A DNA stretch of 64,000 nucleotides from Rhizobium sp. NLR16a (GTDB lineage: Bacteria > Pseudomonadota > Alphaproteobacteria > Rhizobiales > Rhizobiaceae). The translations under genes were made by a program, and so were the position numbers. A model generated the notes under the pieces. The model was not told the DNA's origin. It made no database searches and saw nothing but the letters and a program-made list of their open reading frames with translations. Location of the stretch: positions 62,001 through 126,000 of the forward strand of contig NZ_CP072871.1 in assembly GCF_017948245.1 (NCBI RefSeq), written 5' to 3'. Shown here one piece after another: positions 9,275 through 59,090 of this stretch; within the stretch, counting starts at the first letter, position 1; each line of letters starts with the position of its first letter.

Positions 9275-11677
9275 TTAGGGTCGCGACGACAGAGCCGAGA
9301 GACTGAGCCGCACCGGCAACATCTTGTAGGACGGGGTCTTGGCTTTGGCGTCGTGATGCGCCAGCGGAAAGAGCGGGTTCGCCTCAGGGTAATAGGCCGC
9401 ACAGCACCCGGTTGGAATCGCGTGCCTGGCAATCTTGAAGCCGGCGACTCGGCGCAATGTGGCGACGTCGATGGCAGTCGTCAGATCGACGAAATCGCCT
9501 TCTTTGAAGCCCAGTCTGTCAATATCCTCATCGTTCATGAAGACCACCTTTCGCGATCCCTTCACGCCGCGGTAGCGATCGCTGTAACCGTAGATGGTCG
9601 TGTTGAACTGGTCGTTGGAGCGTAATGTGGCGAGGTTGAGAACCTCAGTGTCGCCCGGACCGATGTCGAGTTCGGGGAAGAGCCGCGGCGGCGTGATGAA
9701 ATTGGCTTTCTGGTTGGGCGTCGTCCATTTGCGCTCCCTGGCCGGCACCGGTCTCGGAATGCCGCCCGGCTGAAACATGCGTTTGTTGAAATCCCTGAAC
9801 GTCTCGGGATAGGTCGCTTCGATCGCATCGCGGATCTTCGAATAATCGCCGACCCATTCGTCCCACGGGACTCGGCCCTTCGCCAGCGTCGCCTTGGCGA
9901 TTCCGGCGATGATGGCGGGCTCCGACAGAAGCTCCTGACTTGCTGGCTTCGCCTTTCCGCGCGAACCATGGAAATGCGCCACGGAACTTTCGATGGAGAC
10001 GGCTTGCGGACCGCTCGCCTGTTCATCGATCTCAATGCGGCCGAGACAGGGAAGGAGATAGGCGATTTCCCCATGGATGACGTGGCTGCGATTGAGCTTC
10101 GTCGCAATCTGTACCGTCAGGCGGAGTTTGCGCCAGGCCTCCTCCATCGCTTCCGTTTCCGGGACAGCGCGCAGGAAATTGCCACCGAGGCTGACGAAGG
10201 CCTTGGCTTCGCCATCCATGATCGCCTTGCAGGTGTCAACGGTCGCGCGACCTTCCCACTGTGGCGGCTCGAACTGGTAGAGCTCCTTCAGCTTGTCGAG
10301 CGGCACGAGGTCCGGCTTTTCCGTTATCCCGACCGTGCGCTGGCCCTGCACGTTCGAGTGGCCGCGCACGGCGCAGATATTGGCGCCCGGCTTGCCGATA
10401 TTGCCGCGCAGTAGCGCGAGATTGGCGACCATATGAACGTTCTCGACACCCATCACATGCTGCGTGAGACCCATGCCGTAGATCATCAGCACCGCCTCCG
10501 AATGGGCGTAGGTGCGGGCTGCCTGAATCATCTGCTCGCGGGTCAAGCCGGAAACACTCTCCAGCTCGGCCCAGTCATATCGGCGGGCCGCTTCGGCGAA
10601 TTCCTCGAAACCCGACGTATGCGTGCTGATGAAATCGTGGTCGAGAACATGCTTTTTGTCGGCGGCGGCAATCGAAGCGGCGAAGGCGACCGCCGCAGCA
10701 TTATCCGGTTTATGGGGCAGGGCATCGGAGCCTGAAACCTTGCTCATGCCCAGTGCCTTCATCGCATCGTCGGCTTCGATCAAGGCTTTGCAGACCCCGA
10801 AGAGGGCCGCGATGTCGCCTCCGTTCTTCACCTGGTAATATTCCGACGAAATCGGCGTCGACCGGCCGGTCAGCATCTGGCTCGGCATTTGCGGGTTGAT
10901 GAAACGTTCGAGACCCGGTTCGCGCAAGAGATTGAAGGTGACGATTTTCACGCCCCGGTCGACGGCGTCCTGAAGGTCATGCAGCATCCGCGGAGAAGAG
11001 GTGGCGACGTTCTGTGCCATGTAGAAAATGCAATCGCAGTTCTGGAAATCGGACAGGATTGCCGTGCCGACGGAGGCTCCGATGCTTTCCGGCAGACCGA
11101 CCGAGGAGCTTTCGTGACACATGTTGGAAGAGTCGGGCAGGTTGTTGCTGCCGAAGATGCGGGCAAAAAGCTGATACATGTAGGAGGTCTCGAGGGATGC
11201 GCGCCCAGAGGTGTAGAAATCGACCTCACGCGGAGGAATTGACCGCAGCTCCTCGCCGATCTCCGCGAATGCATCGCTCCAGTCCACCGGTTCGTATTTG
11301 TCGGTCGAGCGGTTCCACCGCATCGGATGGGTCAGGCGACCTTGCTCTTCGAGATCGTGATCGCTCCACTGCTCCAGCTCATGCAATGTATGGGCGGCGA
11401 AGAAGGCGCGGTCGGCGCGGCGGGAAGTGACCTCCCAGGCGGTCGCCTTTGCGCCGCTTTCGCAAAATTCCATCGCATGCGGTTTTGCAGGCTTGGCCCA
11501 GGCGCAACTGACACACATGTAGCCGTCTGGTTTGTTGTGATGGGAAAGCAGCGACGGCCCCGATCGGGGGACGTGTTCGCGCAGAAGAATTTCTCCAAGA
11601 GATCTCGCCGCCGCCCATCCGCCAGCCGCAGGCGTGTTCTCACCAATTGTTGGCGGATGTTTCGATCGCGCTGACAT
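9275..11677 (-). CDS. FdhF/YdeP family molybdopterin oxidoreductase
   Basis: The ~800-residue protein belongs to the DMSO-reductase superfamily, YdeP/TIGR01701 branch. The N terminus has CVSCAW plus FCESG, a partial Cys cluster that may hold an Fe-S centre. Pterin-binding segments follow (YTSGRASLETSYMYQLFARI, NMCHESSSVG, GIAKATL), with a C-terminal molydopterin dinucleotide-binding domain containing TLRSNDQFNTTIYGYSDR. The substrate is unknown; formate is only suggested by the family name. The ATG at 11677 is chosen for its GGGAGG ribosome site; longer upstream reading lacks conserved sequence. It is the first gene of the oxidase operon and may donate electrons to it (inference). Confidence 0.85.
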   Translation of the reverse strand: MSARSKHPPTIGENTPAAGGWAAARSLGEILLREHVPRSGPSLLSHHNKPDGYMCVSCAWAKPAKPHAMEFCESGAKATAWEVTSRRADRAFFAAHTLHELEQWSDHDLEEQGRLTHPMRWNRSTDKYEPVDWSDAFAEIGEELRSIPPREVDFYTSGRASLETSYMYQLFARIFGSNNLPDSSNMCHESSSVGLPESIGASVGTAILSDFQNCDCIFYMAQNVATSSPRMLHDLQDAVDRGVKIVTFNLLREPGLERFINPQMPSQMLTGRSTPISSEYYQVKNGGDIAALFGVCKALIEADDAMKALGMSKVSGSDALPHKPDNAAAVAFAASIAAADKKHVLDHDFISTHTSGFEEFAEAARRYDWAELESVSGLTREQMIQAARTYAHSEAVLMIYGMGLTQHVMGVENVHMVANLALLRGNIGKPGANICAVRGHSNVQGQRTVGITEKPDLVPLDKLKELYQFEPPQWEGRATVDTCKAIMDGEAKAFVSLGGNFLRAVPETEAMEEAWRKLRLTVQIATKLNRSHVIHGEIAYLLPCLGRIEIDEQASGPQAVSIESSVAHFHGSRGKAKPASQELLSEPAIIAGIAKATLAKGRVPWDEWVGDYSKIRDAIEATYPETFRDFNKRMFQPGGIPRPVPARERKWTTPNQKANFITPPRLFPELDIGPGDTEVLNLATLRSNDQFNTTIYGYSDRYRGVKGSRKVVFMNDEDIDRLGFKEGDFVDLTTAIDVATLRRVAGFKIARHAIPTGCCAAYYPEANPLFPLAHHDAKAKTPSYKMLPVRLSLSALSSRP

Positions 11678-48443: not shown

Positions 48444-48866
48444 TCAATCTTGCCACGGGTCCAGCACGACAATGCCCGCGCCTTCGAAATCCCGGGCATT
48501 GCGGGTGACGACGGTGAGGCCGTGAACCAGGGCCGTCGCGGCAATCAAGACATCGGCTTCATTGCGCCGGTCTGGAACATGCAGATGCGCGCAGCACGTC
48601 GCGACCGCATCGTCGATCGACAGGATACGGTCGGCGAATGCTGGCCGAACCTGATTTTCCAGCCATGCACGCAGACGAGCGCCCTGCGCTACATCGCGGC
48701 GCTGCACGCCGAGTATTCCACGTTCCAATTCCAGGATCGTCATGGCGGAGATGCATAGGCCTGTTGCATCTTGCGCTCCAGCCCATGCGACCACATTAGC
48801 ATTGGCCTTGCCGTCTCCGACCTTCCGCAGCTCGGAAACAACATTGGTGTCCAGCAGATATTTCAA
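48444..48866 (-). CDS. PIN-domain toxin (VapC/FitB type)
   Basis: The 140-residue protein starts KYLLDTNVVSELRK and has ISAMTILELERGIL, EADVLIAATALVHGLTVVTR and RNARDFEGAGIVVLDPW, the acidic set of PIN ribonucleases. Its ATG overlaps the antitoxin stop as ATGA. It is paired with a Phd-type rather than an AbrB-type antitoxin, unlike the pair at 12.3 kb. Confidence 0.88.
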   Translation of the reverse strand: MKYLLDTNVVSELRKVGDGKANANVVAWAGAQDATGLCISAMTILELERGILGVQRRDVAQGARLRAWLENQVRPAFADRILSIDDAVATCCAHLHVPDRRNEADVLIAATALVHGLTVVTRNARDFEGAGIVVLDPWQD

Positions 48867-49117
48867 GATAGATCGACTCCGCGGGGGGCGATCTCAACTC
48901 GAGGCAGATCGAAGTCGATATCCGACAGGCCTGGCATGGAGAGAGCATCGACGAGACTGCGGGGCTTGCCGGTTAGCCGCTCGAATTCGTCATAGGTCAT
49001 CAACACGTGGGATGGCTTTCCACGATCCGTGATGATGACCGGACCATTTTGCGCCGCCTTCTTTGCCCTGCTCACGTCGTGATTTAGTTCGCGGCTGGAA
49101 AGATGTGTCACGCTCAT
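48863..49117 (-). CDS. Phd/YefM-type antitoxin
   Basis: The ~84-residue protein opens SVTHLSSRELNHDVSRAKKA and has GPVIITDRGKPSHVLMTYDE, the DNA-binding fold of Phd/YefM antitoxins, with a flexible acidic end (LSDIDFDLPRVEIAPRGVDL) to wrap the toxin. ATG at 49117 has CGGAGGTGG upstream. A palindrome next to the ribosome site is a likely autoregulatory operator. Confidence 0.85.
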   Translation of the reverse strand: MSVTHLSSRELNHDVSRAKKAAQNGPVIITDRGKPSHVLMTYDEFERLTGKPRSLVDALSMPGLSDIDFDLPRVEIAPRGVDLS

Positions 49118-49130
49118 AATCCACCTCCGA

Positions 49131-49148
49131 TGTAGGCACTTACCTACA
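49131..49148. promoter_or_regulatory. Palindromic operator of the Phd/PIN pair
   Basis: TGTAGG-CACTTA-CCTACA is a perfect inverted repeat with 6-bp arms, directly upstream of the ribosome site of the antitoxin gene. It fits Phd-type autoregulation. Confidence 0.5.
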
Positions 49149-49352
49149 TATAACATTCGGAGAATGAAAGGCAAGATCAGCCGGCCGTTTCGCGGCAGGA
49201 GACGTCGGGTCACGATCGCGAAATCGATGCGGGGCTACACGAGCGATGTCGGGATATTGGCTTCCCAGATCATCTCTGATCTAGTCTCGATTCTCAGCCG
49301 GCAACGCAGCCTGGGCTGACGGTATTTGAAAAAAAGCGAGAGCCGTATTCTC

Positions 49353-50267
49353 ATGACCACTCACCGCTTCATTCCGACGACCTTCCACAATGTCATCGGC
49401 TCTCTTCCGCCCGCCTTGCACATCGCTGACGGCGACACCGTCGTCACGGAGACACTCGACGCCATCGGCTATGACAAGGACGGCATCCGGCGGACATCTG
49501 GTCCCAACCCGATGAACGGCCCGATCTTCGTGGAAGGCGCGGAACCCGGAGATGCGCTGAAGGTCGAGATCATCAGCATGATCCCGACGAGGGACACTGG
49601 TTTTACGCGCAGCATCGTCGCGGCCAATGTCATCGATCCTGAAACGGTTCGCGACCTGCCGCCGCGCGACATGGCGATCTGGGCGATCGACCGCGAAGCA
49701 TTGACGGTCCGATTGTCCGAGCCGGTCTCCGGCCTCGACAGTTTCGTTCTGCCTCTTGCGCCGATGATCGGCTGTTTCGGGGTTGCGCCCAGCCTTGGCC
49801 AGGCAATCTCGACGGCGACCAGCGGCGAATATGGCGGCAACATGGATTATCGCCTGTTCGGTCCGGGCACGACCGTTCGCTTGCCCGTATCGGCGCCGGG
49901 CGCCCTTTTCTTTTTGGGCGACTGCCATGCGGTGCAAGGAGATGGCGAGATCGTCGGTACCGGCGTCGAGACCACTTTCGACGTCACGGTGCGGCTGACG
50001 GTGGAAAAGAAGGCCGGGCTGATCTGGCCACGCGGAGAAACCGCTGAAGACATATTCACCGTCGGCAATGCGAGACCCCTCGACCAGGCGCTCCAGCATG
50101 CGACGAGCGAAATGCTGACCTGGCTGGCGTCGGATTACGGCCTGGACCGGACAGCGGCCAGCCATCTGCTCGGCCAGGTCGTGCGTTACGACGTCGGCAA
50201 CGTCTTTGACCCGGCCTATACGATGGCCTGCCGGGTCGCCAAGAAATGGCTGGTTCGCCAGTCATGA
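49353..50267 (+). CDS. Acetamidase/formamidase family amidase
   Basis: The ~304-residue protein has the FmdA/AmdA beta-rich fold: GPNPMNGPIFVEGAEPGDAL, the central PMIGCFGVAP, SGEYGGNMDYRLFGPGTTVR and FFLGDCHAVQGDGEI, whose Asp, Cys and His belong to the conserved core. These enzymes release ammonia from small amides. It is convergent with the first hydrolase gene of the LuxR locus and could act on the same imported amide (inference). ATG at 49353 is preferred over the TTG at 49326. Confidence 0.8.
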   Translation: MTTHRFIPTTFHNVIGSLPPALHIADGDTVVTETLDAIGYDKDGIRRTSGPNPMNGPIFVEGAEPGDALKVEIISMIPTRDTGFTRSIVAANVIDPETVRDLPPRDMAIWAIDREALTVRLSEPVSGLDSFVLPLAPMIGCFGVAPSLGQAISTATSGEYGGNMDYRLFGPGTTVRLPVSAPGALFFLGDCHAVQGDGEIVGTGVETTFDVTVRLTVEKKAGLIWPRGETAEDIFTVGNARPLDQALQHATSEMLTWLASDYGLDRTAASHLLGQVVRYDVGNVFDPAYTMACRVAKKWLVRQS

Positions 50268-50283
50268 CGGACCAGCATATGCG

Positions 50284-51192
50284 TCAGTCGTGCCGCGACA
50301 GGAAGCGGGAAACGGTCGCCAGGCAAAGCTGCTTTTCCTCGACATGCGGCATATGGCTGGAATTTTCGAAGAGCACCCATTCGCAGCCCGGGACGCGTTC
50401 GAGATAGGGCCTTACGACGAGGGGCGTCGCCTCGTCATGTTTGCCCGAGATCAGCAGCGTCGGTGCTTCGATGCGGTCGAGCCTGTCTTCGATCGTCCAA
50501 TCCTTCATCGTTCCGATGACGTGGAATTCCGTCGGGCCGTTCATGTTGCGATAGACGGTGTTGTCTTCGTCCATGATGGCGAATGTCCGCGCCACATCGG
50601 GCGGCCATGGCGCGACGCGGCAGACATGGCGATCATAGAAGACGCGGGAGGCGGCGATATAGTCCGGATCGGTAAGGCTTCCCGCCCGTTCGTGCTTCAG
50701 CAGCGTGTCCTGCACCTCCTTCGGCAATTCCTGCCGCAGCCGATTGGCTTCGGCAACCCAGGTGTGCATGTTGGCCGGCGAGTTGGCGATGACAAGGGCC
50801 TTCAGGCCTTGCGGCCGGCGCACCGCATGTTCGGCGCCGAGCATGCCGCCCCAGGACTGGCCGAGGAAGGCGTAACGATGCTGGATGCCGAGATGGGCAA
50901 GCAGTGCGTCGAGCTCTTCGAGGAACAGGCCGACCGTCCAGAAATCCGGGCCCTTGTCCGGAAGGCGGGTGGAATTGCCGTTGCCGAGCTGGTCGTAGTG
51001 GATGACCGGGCGGCCGTCGAGGGCGGCGATTTCCTTGAAGGAATCGACGTAGTCATGCGTGCAGCCGGGCCCACCGTGGGCAACGACGAGAGGCAGCTTG
51101 TCGCTTTTCAGCGAACCGGTGACGCGGTACCAGGTGCGATAATCGCGAAAGGGCAGATAGGCTTCACTTGTTGCGACTTCGGCCACCGACAT
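50284..51192 (-). CDS. Proline iminopeptidase-type alpha/beta hydrolase 1
   Basis: The 302-residue hydrolase has the oxyanion/HGGPG motif in [13 protein letters not shown], nucleophile Ser in [11 protein letters not shown], Asp in SGKHDEATP and His in [10 protein letters not shown]: the full triad of the pip (peptidase S33) group. ATG at 51192 has GAGGA with 6 bases of spacing. It is divergent from nothing directly, reading away from luxR; the dyad at 51246 lies ~54 bases upstream. It is a distant paralogue of the hydrolase at 52173-53063. Confidence 0.85.
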
Positions 51193-51245
51193 CTCCATTC
51201 CTCGGAAGTTTGGCAACCATAACGCGGCAACCGCGGCGAAGGCAG

Positions 51246-51261
51246 CTATCACAAGTTATAG
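51246..51261. promoter_or_regulatory. Candidate lux-type box ahead of hydrolase 1
   Basis: CTATCACAAGTTATAG: CTAT and ATAG arms around 8 bases, 54 bases before the hydrolase 1 ATG. It matches the site at 52077 in 13 of 16 positions, differing only in the three central-right bases (AAG for TTC). Confidence 0.65.
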
Positions 51262-51284
51262 GATGGCAATGATCGGCCGCGCTC

Positions 51285-52043
51285 TTAGAGCAGGCGGTAA
51301 TGAGTGGCGCGTACGACGGCCTGCGTACGGTTGCGGGCGCCGAGTTTCTTGGCCGCGGCGTTGAGATGCATGACCACGGTCGGGACGGAACGGCCGATGA
51401 TGCGCGAGATTTCCTTGGCGGAATAGCCTTCCGCCGAATGGCGGAGGCATTCGCGCTCCCGCTCGGTCAGGCGAATGGTGCCGACGCTTCGAGCCTTCGT
51501 GTCGAAAAGCGAATAGGCGGTCTCATGGAAGACGTGGGCAAGCAGGTTGAAGTCAGCGATAGCGCGCAACGCATGCCGTTCGAAATCGCGGTCGCCGCGG
51601 AAACGGATGCCGGTGACCGTCGCATAATCGCCTCCCGGCATATGCACCGGCACGGTGACACCGGTCGACATGTCGCGTTCGAGGAGATAGCGCGTCACCG
51701 GTGCGGTGTCGTCACTCATGAAGCGGTTGATCAGCGTGTCCGCATTCGTGTCGTAATTCCAGAAGAACGGCGCGGTGCTGCGCAGCGCCACCTGCTGGAC
51801 CGGGTCGATGCGGAAATAACCGCGATCGAACCAATAGTCGTGCATATCGTCGGCGATGTTCCGGAGCTTCAGCAGCGACGGGATCATGATCGCGCCGTCG
51901 AGGTCGTAGGGCACCGGCGTATAGTCGTAGATGAGAGCCTCGAAGCCCAGCTGCTTCATCGCCTCGAAGGCCTGGTCGATCCGGCCGTCCAGCGTCTCAT
52001 GCGCCGTAAACTGCCGTCTGATCGTTCCGATGTCGTCAAGCAT
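51285..52043 (-). CDS. LuxR solo of the plant-signal-responsive (OryR/PsoR/PipR) type
   Basis: The 252-residue regulator has an autoinducer-binding domain (residues ~15-165) and a LuxR helix-turn-helix (LTERERECLRHSAEGYSAKE and on). Counting from the conserved Asp70-Pro71 in FRIDPVQQ, the residue at TraR position 57 is Met rather than Trp and at 61 is Trp rather than Tyr; Trp85 is kept (APFFW). W57M/Y61W marks LuxR solos that answer plant compounds instead of acyl-homoserine lactones. No luxI gene is present. It is flanked by two pip-type hydrolases, the usual context. Confidence 0.88.
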   Translation of the reverse strand: MLDDIGTIRRQFTAHETLDGRIDQAFEAMKQLGFEALIYDYTPVPYDLDGAIMIPSLLKLRNIADDMHDYWFDRGYFRIDPVQQVALRSTAPFFWNYDTNADTLINRFMSDDTAPVTRYLLERDMSTGVTVPVHMPGGDYATVTGIRFRGDRDFERHALRAIADFNLLAHVFHETAYSLFDTKARSVGTIRLTERERECLRHSAEGYSAKEISRIIGRSVPTVVMHLNAAAKKLGARNRTQAVVRATHYRLL

Positions 52044-52076
52044 GGGCTGCTCCCGGTTTCGGCGTGGCGCCCTACC

Positions 52077-52092
52077 CTATCACTTCTTATAG
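52077..52092. promoter_or_regulatory. Candidate lux-type box between luxR and hydrolase 2
   Basis: CTATCACTTCTTATAG, the sister of the site at 51246. It lies 34 bases before the luxR ATG on one side and 81 bases before the hydrolase 2 ATG on the other, so it could serve both genes. Confidence 0.65.
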
Positions 52093-52172
52093 CTGGCACG
52101 GAACGCGATTTACGGTAAAAAATTAACCACGCCCAAATATTGAGCAAGGGGTATTTTCTGCTGGAGCAATCA

Positions 52173-53063
52173 ATGTGGCGTGAAATACAGCCGGACGCGC
52201 GATTTGAGATCGATGCCGGTGGCTATCGCGTCGTCGCCTATAGCTTCGGGACCGGCAACGAGACGGTGTTCTGCCTGAACGGCGGTCCCGGTCTGCCCTG
52301 CGATTACCTGCGCGAGGCGCACTCCTGCCTGATCGACAAGGGCTACCGCGTCGTCGCCTTCGACCAGCTCGGCACCGGCGCCTCCGATCGGCCGGACGAT
52401 CTCTCGCTCTGGACGATCGGCCGCTATGTCGAGGAGACCGAAACGGTGCGCAAGACGCTCGGACTCGGAAAGGTCCACATGCTCGGCCATTCCTGGGGCG
52501 GGTGGCTGGCGATCGATTATGCCTTGACCTACCCCGAAAACCTCAAGACGCTGATCCTCGAGGATACCGTCGCCGACATGCCGCATCTGATCTCGGAACT
52601 GGAACGGCTGCGGGCAGCGCTTGGTCCGGAAACAGTCTCGATGATGCAGAAGCATGAGGCGCAGGGGACCTACGATCATCCGGAATATATCGCCGCCGTC
52701 ACCATCCTCAACTACCGCCATGTCTGCCGCCTGGCCGAATGGCCGGCGCCGATACGCCGTTCGCTCGACGACTGGAACATGGCGCCTTACGCGACGATGC
52801 AGGGCCCGAACGAGTTTCTTTACATCGGCAACCTCAAGGACTGGAACCGCATCCCGGATCTGCCGCGGCTGACGCTGCCCGTGCTGATCACCACGGGAGA
52901 GCATGACGAGCTGACGCCCGCCTGCGCGCTCAGGATGAAGCTGGCGCTGCCGAATGCCGAGCTCCGGGTGTTCGCCAATGCCAGCCACATGCCCTTCTAT
53001 GAGAACCCGCAGGACTATTATCCGGCGCTTCTCGATTTCCTCGACCGGCACAAGGCAGCCTGA
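52173..53063 (+). CDS. Proline iminopeptidase-type alpha/beta hydrolase 2
   Basis: The 296-residue hydrolase has CLNGGPGLPCDYL, nucleophile Ser in MLGHSWGGWLAIDYA, Asp in TTGEHDELTP and His in NASHMPFYEN, a complete S33 triad. It corresponds in position to pip/pipA beside OryR, XccR or PipR. ATG at 52173 has CTGGAG with good spacing. The peptide ABC genes follow after 45 bases, so it is likely the first gene of a five-gene operon. Confidence 0.87.
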   Translation: MWREIQPDARFEIDAGGYRVVAYSFGTGNETVFCLNGGPGLPCDYLREAHSCLIDKGYRVVAFDQLGTGASDRPDDLSLWTIGRYVEETETVRKTLGLGKVHMLGHSWGGWLAIDYALTYPENLKTLILEDTVADMPHLISELERLRAALGPETVSMMQKHEAQGTYDHPEYIAAVTILNYRHVCRLAEWPAPIRRSLDDWNMAPYATMQGPNEFLYIGNLKDWNRIPDLPRLTLPVLITTGEHDELTPACALRMKLALPNAELRVFANASHMPFYENPQDYYPALLDFLDRHKAA

Positions 53064-53108
53064 TGCAAGTGAAAGCGGCTCAAACCGGACGAGGACAGAG
53101 GGGCGGCC

Positions 53109-54053
53109 GTGCTCATGTATCGCTATAAATTCGTTCTGACCCGACCGCTTCAGTTCCTGCCCGTCATCTTCGGCATCAGCGTCATCACCTTCATTCTGGT
53201 TCGGCTGATCCCCGGCGATCCGGCGCGCAACATCCTCGGTACGCGCGCCACACCGGCTGCCCTTGCCAGCATCCGTGCCCAATACGGTCTCGATCAGCCG
53301 ATGTGGCTGCAATATGTCTATTTCCTCAAAAATCTCGCCAATGGCGAGATGGGCAAATCGATCCTCTACAAGATCGACGTGCTGAAGCTGATCGTCACCC
53401 GCATCGAGCCGACGCTTGCCCTCGTCGCCGCAAGCGTCGTGCTGTCGGTGCTGATCGCTGTGCCGATGGCGGCGATCGCCGCACGCAATGCCGGCCGGGC
53501 GCCGGACCATGCGGTGCGCATCGTCTCGACCTTCGGCATCGGCTTTCCGCCCTTCTGGTTGGGGCTGATGCTGATCATCCTCTTCAGCGTCGAACTCGGG
53601 CTGCTGCCGGTTTCCGGCTACGGCGCGACGCTCGGCGACAAACTTGCGCATCTCGTGCTGCCGAGCCTGACGGTGGCGCTGTCGCTCTCGACCGTTTTGA
53701 CGCGCAGCCTGCGCGCCGCGATGATCGAGTCGCTGAAATCAGATGTCGCGACGGCGGCGCGCGCCCGCGGCATGCCCGAAGGCATCGTCTTCTGGCGGCA
53801 CGTGCTGCCGAATTCGCTGGTGCCGACGATCAACCTGCTTGCCGTCAACATCGGCTGGCTGATCGGCGGCACGGTTGTGGTCGAGAGCGTCTTCGCGCTG
53901 CCCGGCATGGGCCAGCTCCTCGTCAGGGCGATCTTCTCGCGTGACTATATGGTGGTGCAGGGCGTCGCGATGGTCTTTGCCTGCGCCACCGTGCTGATCA
54001 ACTTCATCGCCGATATCGTCACCGTTGCCGTCGATCCGAGGGTGAAGCTATGA
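53109..54053 (+). CDS. Peptide ABC transporter permease (DppB type)
   Basis: The 314-residue permease has six helices, the early VIFGISVITFILVRLIPGDP and the EAA-type loop ATAARARGMPEGIVFWRHVLPNSLVP. It forms the channel with the next protein for dipeptide/oligopeptide uptake. GTG at 53109 has GAGGGG; ATG at 53115 is an alternative. Confidence 0.9.
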   Translation: MLMYRYKFVLTRPLQFLPVIFGISVITFILVRLIPGDPARNILGTRATPAALASIRAQYGLDQPMWLQYVYFLKNLANGEMGKSILYKIDVLKLIVTRIEPTLALVAASVVLSVLIAVPMAAIAARNAGRAPDHAVRIVSTFGIGFPPFWLGLMLIILFSVELGLLPVSGYGATLGDKLAHLVLPSLTVALSLSTVLTRSLRAAMIESLKSDVATAARARGMPEGIVFWRHVLPNSLVPTINLLAVNIGWLIGGTVVVESVFALPGMGQLLVRAIFSRDYMVVQGVAMVFACATVLINFIADIVTVAVDPRVKL

Positions 54054-54898
54054 GCGTCGAGGTGACAACACCCGCGTCCCCTGGCCGCCTCCTCCTCGGC
54101 CGGCGGCCGATGTTTGCCGTCGGCGCCGGCGTGCTGTTGTTCTTCATCCTGCTGGCGCTTGGCGCGCCTCTTCTCGCGCCCTATGACCCGATCATGCAGA
54201 ATGCCGAGGTGCGCCTGCAGGCGCCTTCGCTGCTTCACCCCTTCGGCACCGACAATTTCGGCCGTGACATCCTCTCCCGCGTCATCTGGGGTGCGCGCAT
54301 CGATCTGCAGATGGCGCTGATCGGCGTCGTCTTCCCGTTCCTGATCGGCACGACGGTCGGCACCATCTCCGGCTTCTTCGGTGGAATCGTCGATGCACTG
54401 TTCATGCGTCTGGTCGATATCATTCTTGCCTTTCCCTTTCTCGTGCTGATGCTGTCGATTATCGCGATCCTCGGCCCAGGACTCGGCAGCTTCTACATCG
54501 CCATGGCGCTGGTCGGCTGGGTCTCCTATGCGCGGCTGATCCGGGCGCAGATGCTGGTGCTGAAGAGCAGCGATTACGCAGTGGCCGCCGTCAGCCTCGG
54601 CTTCAGCCGCAGGCGTATCATGTTCCGGCACCTGCTGCCGAACGCGATTGCCGGCTCGATCGTCTTTTCCATGTCCGATGCGACTCTGGTGCTGCTGAGC
54701 GGTGCGGCCGTCAGCTATCTCGGCCTCGGCGTCCAGCCGCCGATCGCCGAATGGGGCGTCATGGTCGCGGAGGGGCAGAGCTTCATCACCACCGCCTGGT
54801 GGATCACGCTGTTTCCCGGCCTCTCCATCGTCTGCCTTGCCTTCGGCTTCAGCATGCTGGGCGATGCGCTCGGCGAATTGCTGGGAGTGCATGAATGA
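54050..54898 (+). CDS. Peptide ABC transporter permease (DppC type)
   Basis: The 282-residue partner permease has the family opening helix, HPFGTDNFGRDILSRVIWGA, and the loop AVAAVSLGFSRRRIMFRHLLPNAI. Its start overlaps the previous stop as ATGA and its own stop overlaps the ATPase start likewise. Confidence 0.9.
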   Translation: MSVEVTTPASPGRLLLGRRPMFAVGAGVLLFFILLALGAPLLAPYDPIMQNAEVRLQAPSLLHPFGTDNFGRDILSRVIWGARIDLQMALIGVVFPFLIGTTVGTISGFFGGIVDALFMRLVDIILAFPFLVLMLSIIAILGPGLGSFYIAMALVGWVSYARLIRAQMLVLKSSDYAVAAVSLGFSRRRIMFRHLLPNAIAGSIVFSMSDATLVLLSGAAVSYLGLGVQPPIAEWGVMVAEGQSFITTAWWITLFPGLSIVCLAFGFSMLGDALGELLGVHE

Positions 54899-56616
54899 GC
54901 GGTCCTGTGCTCTCCGTTCGCGATCTCACCGTCAGAGCGCATCTCGATTCCGGCCCGCGCACGCTGCTTGATGCAGTCTCGCTCGATCTCGGTCGCGGCG
55001 AAATTCTCGGTCTCGTCGGCGAGAGCGGCTCGGGCAAGAGCCTGTTCTGCCGCTCGCTGGTGCGCCTCTTGCCCTCCTCGCTGCTGAAGATCGAGAGCGG
55101 TTCCATGCTGCTGGAAGGACGCGACCTGACGCGGATCCATGACGTTGAGATGCTGAAGGTGCGCGGCGGTGAGATCGGCATGATCTTCCAGAACCCGACC
55201 AGCCATCTCGATCCGGTCATGCGGATCGGCAATCAGATCGCCGAGGGCATCCGCTATCATCAGGGCCTTGGTGCCCACGAAGCTCGCGCCGCGGCGTTGG
55301 AAATTCTCGCGCAGGTCGGCTTTCCCGACCCCGGCCGGCAGTACGACAGCTATCCGCATGAATTTTCCGGCGGCATGCGCCAGCGGGCGATGATCGGTGT
55401 TGCCCTGTCCTGCAATCCGAAAATCCTGATCGCCGACGAACCGACGACGGCGCTCGACGTCACCATTCAGGCGCAGATCCTGCGGCTGCTGATCGATATT
55501 CGCGACCGCCGCGGCCTGTCGATCATTCTCATCACTCACGATCTCGGCATCGTCGCCCAGACCTGCGACCGCATCGCCGTAATGCGTGGCGGCAAGCTCA
55601 TCGAAGAGGGGCCGAAGCGGACGATCCTCGCACAGCCGCAACATCCCTATACGATCAACCTGATCGACAGCCACCCGTCGATATCAGGCGGGATGCCGGC
55701 GCCGGCGCTCGAGATCGCCGAGGCACGCGCGCCGGCGAGACCCTTGCTCGAAATCGATGATCTGCACGTGCGTTTCAGAGCCGGTGGCAGCCTGGTCAAG
55801 GGTGGCGCCAAGACGGTCAGCGCCGTTGCCGGCGTCAGCCTGCAGATCATGCCGGGCGAGACGGTCGGCATCGTCGGCGAATCCGGCAGCGGCAAAAGCA
55901 CGCTTGCCCGCGCCGTGCTCGGTCTCACGCCACTTTCCTCGGGTCATGTCACCTTCGACGGTGTCGATCTCACGCTGCAGAAAAGCGCTGGCCTGGCAAA
56001 GCTCAGGCGCGAAACGGCGATGGTGTTCCAGGACCCCTATAATGCCCTCAATCCCCGGCTGACGATCGGGCAGATGCTGGCCGAGGTGCTGAAGGTGCAG
56101 GGCAAGGTCGCCAAGGTCGATATTCCGGCGCGCATCGGCGAACTGCTCGATCTCGTCGGCCTCGAGCGCGAATTCGCTGAGCGCAAGCCGCGCAGCATGA
56201 GCGGCGGTCAGTGCCAGCGCGCCGGCATCGCCCGCGCGCTTGCCGTCGAACCGAAGCTGATTATCGCCGACGAATGCGTGGCGGCCCTCGACGTCACCAT
56301 CCAGGCGCAGATCATCGAGCTTTTCCGCCAGCTCACCGCGAAGATGAACCTGACGCTGGTCTTCATCGCCCATGATCTGGCGATCGTGCGCAATCTCTGC
56401 GAACGCGTCGTCGTGATGTATCGCGGAGAGATCGTCGAGGAGGGCCGCTCCGACGAGGTCTTCGCGCGGCCGAAGCATGCCTATACCGCGGCGCTGATCG
56501 CTGCCATTCCCGACATCGATCCTGACAAGCCGCTGCTGCAAGGGCACCGGCCGCAGGGACGAGGCGCAATCCATATCCATCAGACGCATGCCATAACAAA
56601 GAAGGGAACGAACTGA
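54895..56616 (+). CDS. Peptide ABC transporter, fused double ATPase (DppD-DppF)
   Basis: The 573-residue protein holds two complete ATPase modules. The first (residues 1-~275) has [20 protein letters not shown] and [11 protein letters not shown]. The second (~285-560) has [31 protein letters not shown] and [11 protein letters not shown]. Both keep Walker A, signature and Walker B, although Cys replaces Pro in the second Walker B neighbour. Separate dppD and dppF genes are fused here, as in GsiA-like proteins. Confidence 0.92.
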
Positions 56617-58130
56617 TGCCAAACAGGTGGAAATCAATCGGGCTTGCCGCCATGCTCGCTGGCCTGACATTGAGTGCAAGCTATGCCGAAGCCGCCGGTG
56701 TGCTCACCATCGGCCGCCGCGAGGATTCGACGACATTCGATCCGATCAAGACGGCGCAGAACATCGACAACTGGGTGTTCTCGAACGTCTACGATGTGCT
56801 GATCCGCGTCGACAAGACAGGCACCAAGCTGGAGCCGGGCCTTGCCGAAAGCTGGACCGCCTCCAATGACGGGCTGACCTACACCTTCAAGATCCGCGAT
56901 GCGAAATTCTCGGACGGTTCGCCGCTGACGGCGGAAGACGCGGCCTACAGCCTGCTGCGCATCCGCGACGACCCGGCCTCGCTCTGGAGCGATTCCTACA
57001 AGGTGATCGACACGGCGGCTGCGACCGACGCGCATACGCTGACGATCAAGCTCAAGAATCCGTCGGCGCCGTTCCTGTCGACGCTGGCGCTGCCGAACGC
57101 TTCCGTCATTTCGAAGGCGGGCATGGAAGCGCTGGGCGCCGATACCTATGCCGAAAAGCCGGTCGCATCCGGCGCCTTCACCGTCGAGGAATGGCGGCGT
57201 GGCGACCGCATTATCCTTAAGAAGAACCCAAACTTCTGGCAGGCCGACCGAGTCAAGCTCGACGGCGTCGAATGGATCTCCGTGCCCGACGACAATACCC
57301 GGATGCTCAACGTCCAGGCCGGCGAGCTGGATGCGGCGATCTTTGTACCGTTTTCCCGGGTCGAGGAGCTGAAGAAGGATACAAGCCTCAACGTCGACGT
57401 CGATTCCTCTACTCGCGAGGATCATCTTCTGATCAACCATGCGCACGGCGCGCTCGCCAAGAAAGAAGTCCGCCAGGCGCTCGACTTGGCGATCGACAAG
57501 AAGGCGATCGTCGACGCCGTCACCTTCCGCCAGGGCACGGTTGCCAACTCTTACATTCCGAAAGGCGCGCTTTATTATTTCGCCGATAATTTGCAGCGGC
57601 CCTACGATCCTGAAAAAGCAAAGGAGATGCTGCTTGCTGCTGGCGCTTCCGACCTGACGCTCAATTATCTGATCCGCGCCGGTGACGAGGTCGACGAACA
57701 GACGGCCGTGCTGGTCCAGCAGCAGTTGCAGAAGGCCGGCATTACCGCCAACCTGCAAAAGGTCGACCCGAGCCAGGAATGGGACATGACGGTTGCGGGC
57801 GACTACGACATCTCCGTCAACTATTGGACGAACGACATCCTCGATCCGGACCAGAAGACAACCTTTGTTCTCGGCCACGATTCGAACAATAATTACATGA
57901 CCAACTACAAGAATGAGGCGGTGAAGGAGCTGGTCGCCAAGGCGCGTCTCGAACTCGACCCGAAGAAACGCGAAGAGATGTATGTCGATCTGCAGAAGAT
58001 GGCCAAGGACGACGTCAACTGGATCGACCTCTATTACAGCCCCTACATCAACGTCTCGCGCAAGAATATCGAGAACTTCCACCAGAACCCGCTCGGCCGC
58101 TTCTTCCTGGAAGACACGGTCAAGAACTGA
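56616..58130 (+). CDS. Peptide ABC transporter substrate-binding protein (SBP family 5)
   Basis: The 504-residue protein starts with a signal peptide ending SYAEA and has the family 5 opening IGRREDSTTFDPIKTAQNID plus LAESWTASNDGLTYTFKIRD. This DppA/OppA fold binds peptides, nickel or opine-like compounds. In PipR-type loci a protein of this kind is needed for response to the plant signal, so this one may set the ligand range. A strong terminator follows. Confidence 0.92.
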   Translation: MPNRWKSIGLAAMLAGLTLSASYAEAAGVLTIGRREDSTTFDPIKTAQNIDNWVFSNVYDVLIRVDKTGTKLEPGLAESWTASNDGLTYTFKIRDAKFSDGSPLTAEDAAYSLLRIRDDPASLWSDSYKVIDTAAATDAHTLTIKLKNPSAPFLSTLALPNASVISKAGMEALGADTYAEKPVASGAFTVEEWRRGDRIILKKNPNFWQADRVKLDGVEWISVPDDNTRMLNVQAGELDAAIFVPFSRVEELKKDTSLNVDVDSSTREDHLLINHAHGALAKKEVRQALDLAIDKKAIVDAVTFRQGTVANSYIPKGALYYFADNLQRPYDPEKAKEMLLAAGASDLTLNYLIRAGDEVDEQTAVLVQQQLQKAGITANLQKVDPSQEWDMTVAGDYDISVNYWTNDILDPDQKTTFVLGHDSNNNYMTNYKNEAVKELVAKARLELDPKKREEMYVDLQKMAKDDVNWIDLYYSPYINVSRKNIENFHQNPLGRFFLEDTVKN

Positions 58131-58214: not shown

Positions 58215-59090
58215 TTATTCGGCAGCCGCCAGCTTGTCCTGCGTTTTGGTCTCGAAATCGCTGGCGTCGTGGCGCTCGTGCAACTGGCTCGACGGGTCGC
58301 CGGAGAGGCGGTTGACCATCCGGCCGCGCTGCACCGCGGGCCGGCTATAGATATTGTCGGCCCAGCGCAACACGTTTTTATAGTCCCCGACTTGCAGGAA
58401 TTCCGCGGCCTCGTAGCTCCAGCCCTTCACCAGGCCGCCGTACCACGGCCAGATGGCAATATCGGCGATCGTGTATTGACTGCCTGCCACATATTCGCTT
58501 TCGGCAAGACGGTGATCGAGCACGTCGAGCTGACGCTTCACCTCCATCGCGAAGCGGTCGATCGCATATTCGATCTTGGTTGGTGCATAGGCGTAGAAAT
58601 GGCCGAAGCCGCCGCCGAGATAGGGCGCGCTTCCCATTTGCCAGAACAGCCATGACAGGCATTCGGCACGCTCACTCGGCTCGGTCGGCAGGAAGGCGCC
58701 GAACTTCTCGGCGAGATAGGTGAGGATGGCGCCGGATTCGAAGACGCGGACCGGCTTCGGGCCGCTGCGGTCCATCAGCGCCGGGATCTTGGAGTTGGGA
58801 TTGACGGCGACGAAGCCGCTGCCGAACTGGTCGCCCTCGCCGATCCTGATCAGCCAGGCGTCATACTCCGCACCGCCATGACCGAGCGCCAGCAGTTCCT
58901 CGAGCATGATCGTGACCTTCTGGCCGTTCGGCGTTCCGAGCGAATAGAGCTGCAGCGGGTGGCGGCCGATCGGAAGCTCCTTCTCATGTGTCGGTCCCGC
59001 TATCGGGCGATTGATGTTGGCGAATTGGCCGCCATTCGCCTTGTTCCAGGTCCAGACCTTCGGGGGGATATAGTCGGAGGTACCGCTCAT
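58215..59090 (-). CDS. yghU: YghU-like glutathione transferase/disulphide-bond oxidoreductase
   Basis: The 291-residue protein begins with the YghU extension SDYIPPKVWTWNKANGGQFA, then NRPIAGPTHEKELPIGRHPL, a thioredoxin-fold N domain with VNPNSKIPALMD, and a helical C domain (GHFYAYAPTKIEYAIDRFAM). YghU binds two glutathiones and reduces disulphides or peroxides. It stands alone, convergent with the peptide operon. Confidence 0.9.
   Translation of the reverse strand: MSGTSDYIPPKVWTWNKANGGQFANINRPIAGPTHEKELPIGRHPLQLYSLGTPNGQKVTIMLEELLALGHGGAEYDAWLIRIGEGDQFGSGFVAVNPNSKIPALMDRSGPKPVRVFESGAILTYLAEKFGAFLPTEPSERAECLSWLFWQMGSAPYLGGGFGHFYAYAPTKIEYAIDRFAMEVKRQLDVLDHRLAESEYVAGSQYTIADIAIWPWYGGLVKGWSYEAAEFLQVGDYKNVLRWADNIYSRPAVQRGRMVNRLSGDPSSQLHERHDASDFETKTQDKLAAAE

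Follow-up and report, generated by a model that had tools for sequence, protein, structure and literature searches.

LuxR solos of the plant-associated bacteria (PAB) subfamily have been described beside pip genes and peptide-type transporters. A W57M/Y61W group accompanied by pip and a transporter, with Rhizobium among its hosts, is on record (PMC4338825; PMC10134790), and a review table lists NesR, OryR, XccR, and PsoR with the layout 'pip/peptide transporter - luxR - pip/hp' (PMC10134790). W57M/Y61W is reported for OryR, XccR, PsoR, and PsrR (PMC4338825; OryR and PsrR in PMC7301841), as are a pip gene adjoining luxR and a pip box of the form CT(N12)AG, a motif described for both las and pip boxes (PMC4471428). 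The account of Pseudomonas sp. GM79 in PMC4981722 places pipR ahead of pipA and divergent from aapA-F, with PipR between two S33-type peptidases; a transporter mutant gave no response, and peptidase mutants over-responded. AapF is the binding protein of a Pip system responsive to the ethanolamine-derived amide HEHEAA, and the transporter is described as necessary for HEHEAA import (PMC10134790). Quorum sensing in Rhizobium was surveyed in 2026, with LuxR solos deferred to a later paper (PMC13133039). Here, a stretch of 64,000 nucleotides from Rhizobium sp. NLR16a (contig NZ_CP072871.1, positions 62,001 to 126,000; the window) was analyzed around a luxR gene and its neighbors. The locus is very probably a plasmid-borne Pip locus of the NesR/PipR type, combining import, sensing, activation of two promoters, and ligand breakdown.

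The receptor residues were read in TraR numbering from an alignment with two solved TraR proteins and with PAB-type relatives that included Pseudomonas, Kosakonia, Dickeya, Rahnella, and Gibbsiella; the OryR, XccR, PsoR, PsrR, and PipR proteins themselves were left out. The locus LuxR carried M57, W61, and Q73 together with D70, P71, W85, G113, E178, L182, and G188, the last seven being the conserved residues of the PAB subfamily, all of them kept (7/7). The alignment agreed with the counting of Met57, Trp61, and Trp85 in the preliminary description of this DNA, and the refuting placement of Trp57/Tyr61 was not found. That description had also listed PipR as a W57M receptor, which was an error: PipR is reported as W57/W61 and deviates from receptors of acyl-homoserine lactones (AHLs) at only one of the two positions (PMC4981722; PMC7301841). 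In the 19 other PAB-type rows, W61 and Q73 were invariant (19/19), and position 57 was Met in 14 and Trp in five, all from Pseudomonas. With M57 instead of the W57 of PipR, the locus LuxR was therefore filed with NesR and not with the GM79-type PipR. Four AHL-type LuxR proteins of the same genome, three of which adjoin a luxI while one lies about 10 kb from one, showed W57, Y61, and V73 in the same alignment, and in a maximum-likelihood tree six AHL-type rows were split from 20 PAB-type rows with support of 100/99. As judged from its sequence, the protein is a PAB LuxR solo of the OryR/NesR/PipR subfamily, with pip genes beside it and a coupled importer of the peptide type.

A search of the whole genome gave no luxI match on C7, the replicon of the locus, so the claim of a LuxR without luxI held for that replicon; elsewhere, the genome has four luxI genes (C1:924447, C2:247345, C5:186385, and C5:281862). 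Together with a fold common to AHL receptors, these could suggest that the protein listens to the luxI systems of its own cell, and the S. meliloti nesR promoter has been reported to be bound by ExpR/AHL, which would bring nesR expression, but not the NesR ligand, under AHL control (PMC5977203). Such a role is nevertheless extremely unlikely: the M57, W61, Q73 pocket differs from the W, Y, V of the four AHL-type receptors, the protein falls on the separate side of the tree, and in the published assays PipR was silent to six AHLs (PMC4981722) and OryR to 15 (PMC4471428). The luxI proteins at C2:247345 and C5:186385 were closely similar, as were the adjoining luxR genes, which may reflect a duplication.

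Gene calls and domains placed pip behind luxR in the same orientation and, on the divergent side, an S33 hydrolase gene followed by two permease genes, a double ATPase gene, and a binding-protein gene (Table 1). Families were called with the curated Pfam cut-offs for eight genes, including the acetamidase/formamidase gene convergent on pip, and with the NCBIfam cut-off for TIGR01250; all eight genes lay where the preliminary description had put them, with the families it had named and Pfam matches above the cut-offs. Details of the arrangement required correction. S33 hydrolases do occur on both sides of luxR, each above the TIGR01250 cut-off, but the second is transcribed away from luxR as the leading gene of the transporter operon; and the peptide ABC importer is coupled, but its two ATPases are a single gene whose one product carries both ABC domains. 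The best match of pip in PDB was 7a6g, 'Putative Proline iminopeptidase' (E 5e-139), and the triad motifs GQSWGG, HDEATP, and SSHMPH were read by eye from its translation; the AapA-type hydrolase matched the proline iminopeptidase 3wmr (E 3e-50). From the starts of homologues, pip likely begins at ATG 51192, not at GTG 51252, to which its open frame extends, and the aapA-type gene likely begins at ATG 52173, not at TTG 52140, where its open frame starts. Replicon C7 (197,677 bases) carries one of the eight repC matches of the genome and was therefore taken as a repABC-type plasmid.

A 16-bp palindrome was found on each side of luxR: CTATAACTTGTGATAG in the luxR-pip gap and CTATCACTTCTTATAG in the divergent promoter region. 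The two form a matched pair that fits the CT(N12)AG pip-box class and are putative sites. Their spacing of -61.5/-88.5 from the likely pip and aapA-type starts was near the -71.5 (pipA) and -91.5 (aapA) given for the GM79 boxes (PMC4981722), and CTATCACTTCTTATAG was also centered at -41.5 from the luxR ATG. For the pattern CTATNANNNNTNATAG the window held these two matches, where 0.01 would be expected; two matches occurred in 0/100 shuffles. The stricter motif CTATMANNNNTKATAG had exactly two matches in the 6.6-Mb genome, both at the locus; within one mismatch it gave 8 genome sites, compared with 31 for a backward-read control, while the looser CTATNANNNNTNATAG gave 3 (the third on C1), compared with 2 for the control. 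Nothing thus points to more targets with this motif, and a regulon reaching beyond the locus in this genome was rejected, the exact CTATMANNNNTKATAG being confined to the locus and its one-mismatch sites being fewer than in the control. Degenerate boxes can also be bound by LuxR-type proteins, and targets may therefore escape a motif scan; the picture of two boxes at a single locus is a testable limit on the direct control exerted by NesR.

A LuxR match at E <= 1e-40 was present in 42/394 Rhizobiaceae genomes, the own genome included, and a match at E <= 1e-30 in 12/398 genomes drawn from the phylum. The survey set consisted of 40 of the 41 non-own matched Rhizobiaceae genomes, G255 (LuxR 40% identical) being left out; the named set consisted of the best 80 of 102 relatives and overlaps the survey set, and the two are therefore not independent. 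In survey loci with LuxR identities of 56 to 98% (L042-L065), pip and luxR lay divergent from aapA, B, C, and DE in that order in 24/24, and the binding-protein gene then followed in 23/24. A survey of Rhizobiaceae gene order had been suggested in the preliminary description, and the order was kept in all 24 loci with a LuxR at least 56% identical, barring two contig-end cuts (the contig of L060 ends before the binding-protein gene, and that of L046 cuts pip). Where the LuxR was 46 to 51% identical, a divergent aapA operon with split ATPases was found in 11/12 loci, the contig of L071 ending before the operon. No pip was found behind luxR in L066-L070 and L072-L077 (L068 holds only 366 bases there).

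Of the 40 survey relatives, 28 had a box within one mismatch on the pip side and 35 had one on the opposite side; 39 had at least one such box and 24 had both, against shuffled means of 0.04, 0, 0.04, and 0, respectively. The sole survey locus without a one-mismatch box, L068, has a two-mismatch version. Beyond the Rhizobiaceae survey, one locus of the same order had both boxes exact and one of the same class had one exact; L163-L165 and L167, all of one genus, had one- or two-mismatch plus three-mismatch boxes (the LuxR of L165 shares 97% identity with a protein of P. fluorescens), and L166 and L168 gave only three-mismatch matches, for which chance is possible. A cross-genome scan covered 10 relatives from the better-scoring hits (10/41 non-own hits). 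In these, 17/20 exact sites lay at the luxR locus and three elsewhere, and the one-mismatch count was below the control in 10/10. The three off-locus exact boxes (L186, L191, and L201; one in G305 and two in G341) are possible extra targets or chance matches.

The nearest described counterpart among the named relatives was the locus of Ensifer aridi LMR001 (L124), whose LuxR was 85% identical to that of the window. The gene-specific parts of the outer primers published for the E. aridi nesR deletion (PMC8877191) matched L124 exactly at 9854-9871 and 10930-10948, on both sides of its luxR (10001-10756), which is therefore nesR. The E. aridi locus has the same order of pip, luxR, divergent S33 gene, and ABC importer, and both boxes are present; it differs in having neither the acetamidase nor the glutathione-S-transferase-like neighbor described below, and its binding protein is 80% identical to the Rhizobium one. 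The S. meliloti nesR (SMc04032), tabulated with pip and peptide-transporter neighbors (PMC10134790), can be likened to it by that description. The PipR/AapA-F locus of GM79 is alike in layout, in its two S33-type hydrolases, in a peptide-type importer with an AapF-type binding protein, and in box positions; it differs in having two separate ATPase genes, fused in the Rhizobium locus, and in the W57 of PipR versus M57. Because both the PipR locus (PMC4981722) and the NesR, OryR, XccR, and PsoR layouts (PMC10134790) show a pair of flanking hydrolases in the published descriptions, the doubled hydrolases, earlier regarded as distinctive, are the usual arrangement. The idea of a rhizobial system of the OryR/NesR/PipR type has thus stood with respect to subfamily, pip genes, and importer, but not with respect to special doubled hydrolases, an extra amidase, or a HEHEAA-type ligand.

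For the binding protein, the best solved relative was AapF (7kz8/7kz9), with 341/482 aligned residues identical (71%). At this identity a similar ligand class is likely, and the Rhizobium protein is predicted to share an AapF-like one, although identity does not settle the ligand; a close AapF homologue from another species is described as not binding HEHEAA (PMC10134790). The earlier suggestion of a HEHEAA-type ligand for the circuit was unsupported, as PsrR, an M57-type receptor, showed no HEHEAA response in the published test (PMC7301841). By analogy with GM79, the AapF-type binding protein would capture a small peptide- or amide-like solute, probably of plant origin, and the ABC transporter would bring it into the cell, where the LuxR solo would bind it. 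The ligand-bound LuxR would then bind the two CT(N12)AG boxes and activate pip on one side, the aapA-type operon on the other, and possibly itself, and the two S33 hydrolases would degrade the ligand and so close a negative feedback loop. Import before sensing, like the feedback, is carried over from the GM79 orthologues and fits the parts, gene order, residues, and boxes seen at the Rhizobium locus. For the ligand of the rhizobial branch, the locus gives a clean entry point in its pairing of an M57-type receptor and an AapF orthologue: should the latter bind HEHEAA while the receptor stays silent, the signal would be set by the receptor rather than by the importer.

Several observations weigh against this reading. 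The receptor with a known ligand, PipR, has W57, whereas the locus LuxR has M57; Kosakonia PsrR (M57, W61) showed no pip induction by HEHEAA, ethanolamine, or root macerate in the published tests (PMC7301841), and PsaR2 of P. syringae pv. actinidiae is reported to have regulated neither pip nor itself in vitro (PMC3909224). GM79 PipR acted strongly on pipA but had only a small effect on aapA in the account given (PMC4981722), and S. meliloti NesR is described as not yet assayed for a response to plants (PMC3821632; PMC5977203). In the alignment, TraR position 105 fell on Asp in the locus LuxR, compared with the leucine reported for the PAB subfamily; this column is unsure because it lies in a loop region where the other PAB rows also differ among themselves. 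Long branches were flagged by the program in the LuxR tree. As for the boxes, the stricter pattern with two mismatches was found twice in the window versus 1.6 expected, which is no surplus, and the consensus was derived from the locus and its relatives and then counted in those same relatives.

The same machinery could also serve another role, that of a substrate-inducible catabolic operon in which the LuxR senses an imported amide or peptide as food; the term plant signal would then be overstated and the nesR phenotypes indirect. This possibility deserves serious consideration, somewhat short of an even chance, and its probability overlaps with that of the Pip-type sensing circuit. It is consistent with the confinement of the exact box to this one place in the genome and with one-mismatch sites fewer than in the backward control, with the genes beside the boxes, which are for import, hydrolysis, and regulation only, and with the reported induction of PipR by peptone and a tripeptide as well (PMC4981722). 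Degenerate boxes argue in the other direction, as the lasI promoter is reported to have been activated by OryR and the pip promoter by LasR (PMC4471428), and motility genes are reportedly under OryR control, probably via a pip-box-like site (PMC4399327). The E. aridi nesR mutants likewise weigh against it, with lower plant weight and nodule number and poorer growth at 0.4 M salt, as reported in PMC8877191.

Table 1. Features of the Rhizobium sp. NLR16a locus, in positions of the window
Feature	Position	Strand	Evidence
Acetamidase/formamidase-family protein, convergent on pip	49353..50267	+	PF03069; PDB 5ubu, E 3e-48
pip, proline iminopeptidase-family hydrolase (S33)	50284..51192	-	TIGR01250, 261 bits vs cut-off 168
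Putative pip-box-like palindrome CTATAACTTGTGATAG, luxR-pip gap	51246..51261	-	Center at -61.5 from likely pip ATG
LuxR solo, NesR/PipR type	51285..52043	-	Autoind_bind and GerE domains, TraR alignment, tree
Putative pip-box-like palindrome CTATCACTTCTTATAG, divergent promoter region	52077..52092	+	Center at -88.5 from likely aapA-type ATG
AapA-type S33 hydrolase, leads transporter operon	52173..53063	+	TIGR01250, 267 bits vs cut-off 168
Importer permease, AapB type	53109..54053	+	PF00528, PF19300
Importer permease, AapC type	54050..54898	+	PF00528, PF12911
Importer ATPase, AapD and AapE fused	54895..56616	+	PF00005 in two stretches, PF08352 in two stretches
Substrate-binding protein, AapF orthologue	56616..58130	+	SBP_bac_5; PDB 7kz8/7kz9 AapF, E 3e-235

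The acetamidase gene had been proposed to extend the circuit. It was counted as present at 60% identity or more over more than 150 residues, and loci were counted as close when their LuxR was at least 89% identical. By these measures it was found in 3/3 close survey loci and 24/27 close named loci, but in 0/37 and 0/53 of the more distant ones; when only loci with at least 4.5 kb of pip-side sequence were considered, the counts were 3/3 and 21/22 for close and 0/34 and 0/50 for distant loci. The close named loci without it were L084 (10,000 bases on the pip side), L096 (2,864), and L097 (1,669), and the distant loci short on that side were L046, L050, L068, L126, and L133 (<2.5 kb) and L153 (2.6 kb). 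In 6 of the 24 close named loci that have it (L085, L090, L092, L093, L099, and L106) the amidase lay about 2 kb further from pip; in some similar plasmid records, an NAD(P)H-binding protein is annotated among the genes under the match. Motif scans of the window gave no box before the amidase, which shares no operator with the circuit, and its product scored far below the NCBIfam formamidase cut-off (43 versus 500 bits).

The amidase might still be a working third hydrolase that clears an amide product of a plant compound, and its frequency in close loci would agree with this, as would whole-locus matches with the amidase on Rhizobium plasmids, where the whole stretch is common (of 302 matching records, 131 contain 80% or more of the 8.9-kb query at one site). 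Given its absence from all distant relatives, its displacement in some close ones, the missing box, and a glutathione-S-transferase-like neighbor with the same lineage pattern, such a function is unlikely. As a circuit member the amidase was rejected on its 0/53 and 0/37 in distant relatives, its displacement, and its lack of a box; most likely it is a neighbor carried along with this part of the plasmid in the lineage. Among the papers listed by a limited literature search, no published link of an acetamidase to such a locus was seen. A more far-reaching scheme is that the M57 circuit of R. etli/leguminosarum was re-tuned from a HEHEAA-type signal to another plant amide, one of legumes, whose breakdown the acetamidase would complete as a constitutively made third hydrolase, and that the regulon is confined to this one locus. 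This is decidedly unlikely; if true, NesR would be a dedicated sensor of one nutrient signal and not a global stress regulator. What is new here is small, namely the defined box pair, the fusion of the two ATPases, and evidence placing the amidase outside the circuit; beyond these points, the locus confirms what is already described.

Some variation was seen at the more divergent loci of the survey. Those without a detected pip behind luxR (L066-L070 and L072-L077) each had a box within two mismatches, and L066, L070, and L074 carried two aapA-like hydrolases in tandem. In L078-L081 (LuxR 41 to 46% identical), a pip-like gene lay on the divergent side and the transporter behind luxR, with a one-mismatch box on the transporter side of luxR. 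The binding protein of this transporter (SBP_bac_5 in L081) was just 24 to 26% identical to the AapF type, and the two LuxR proteins that were aligned, those of L078 and L081, had M57, W61, and Q73; these loci may hold a PAB receptor that has a different ligand.

Past the importer genes, a glutathione-S-transferase-like gene, named by eye (58215-59090, minus strand), converges on the binding-protein gene. It followed the lineage pattern of the amidase, being present in 3/3 and 27/27 close loci and in 0/37 and 0/53 distant ones. Beyond the acetamidase, at 48444-49213 on the minus strand, two overlapping small genes appeared VapC/antitoxin-like by eye and were matched in only some close relatives.

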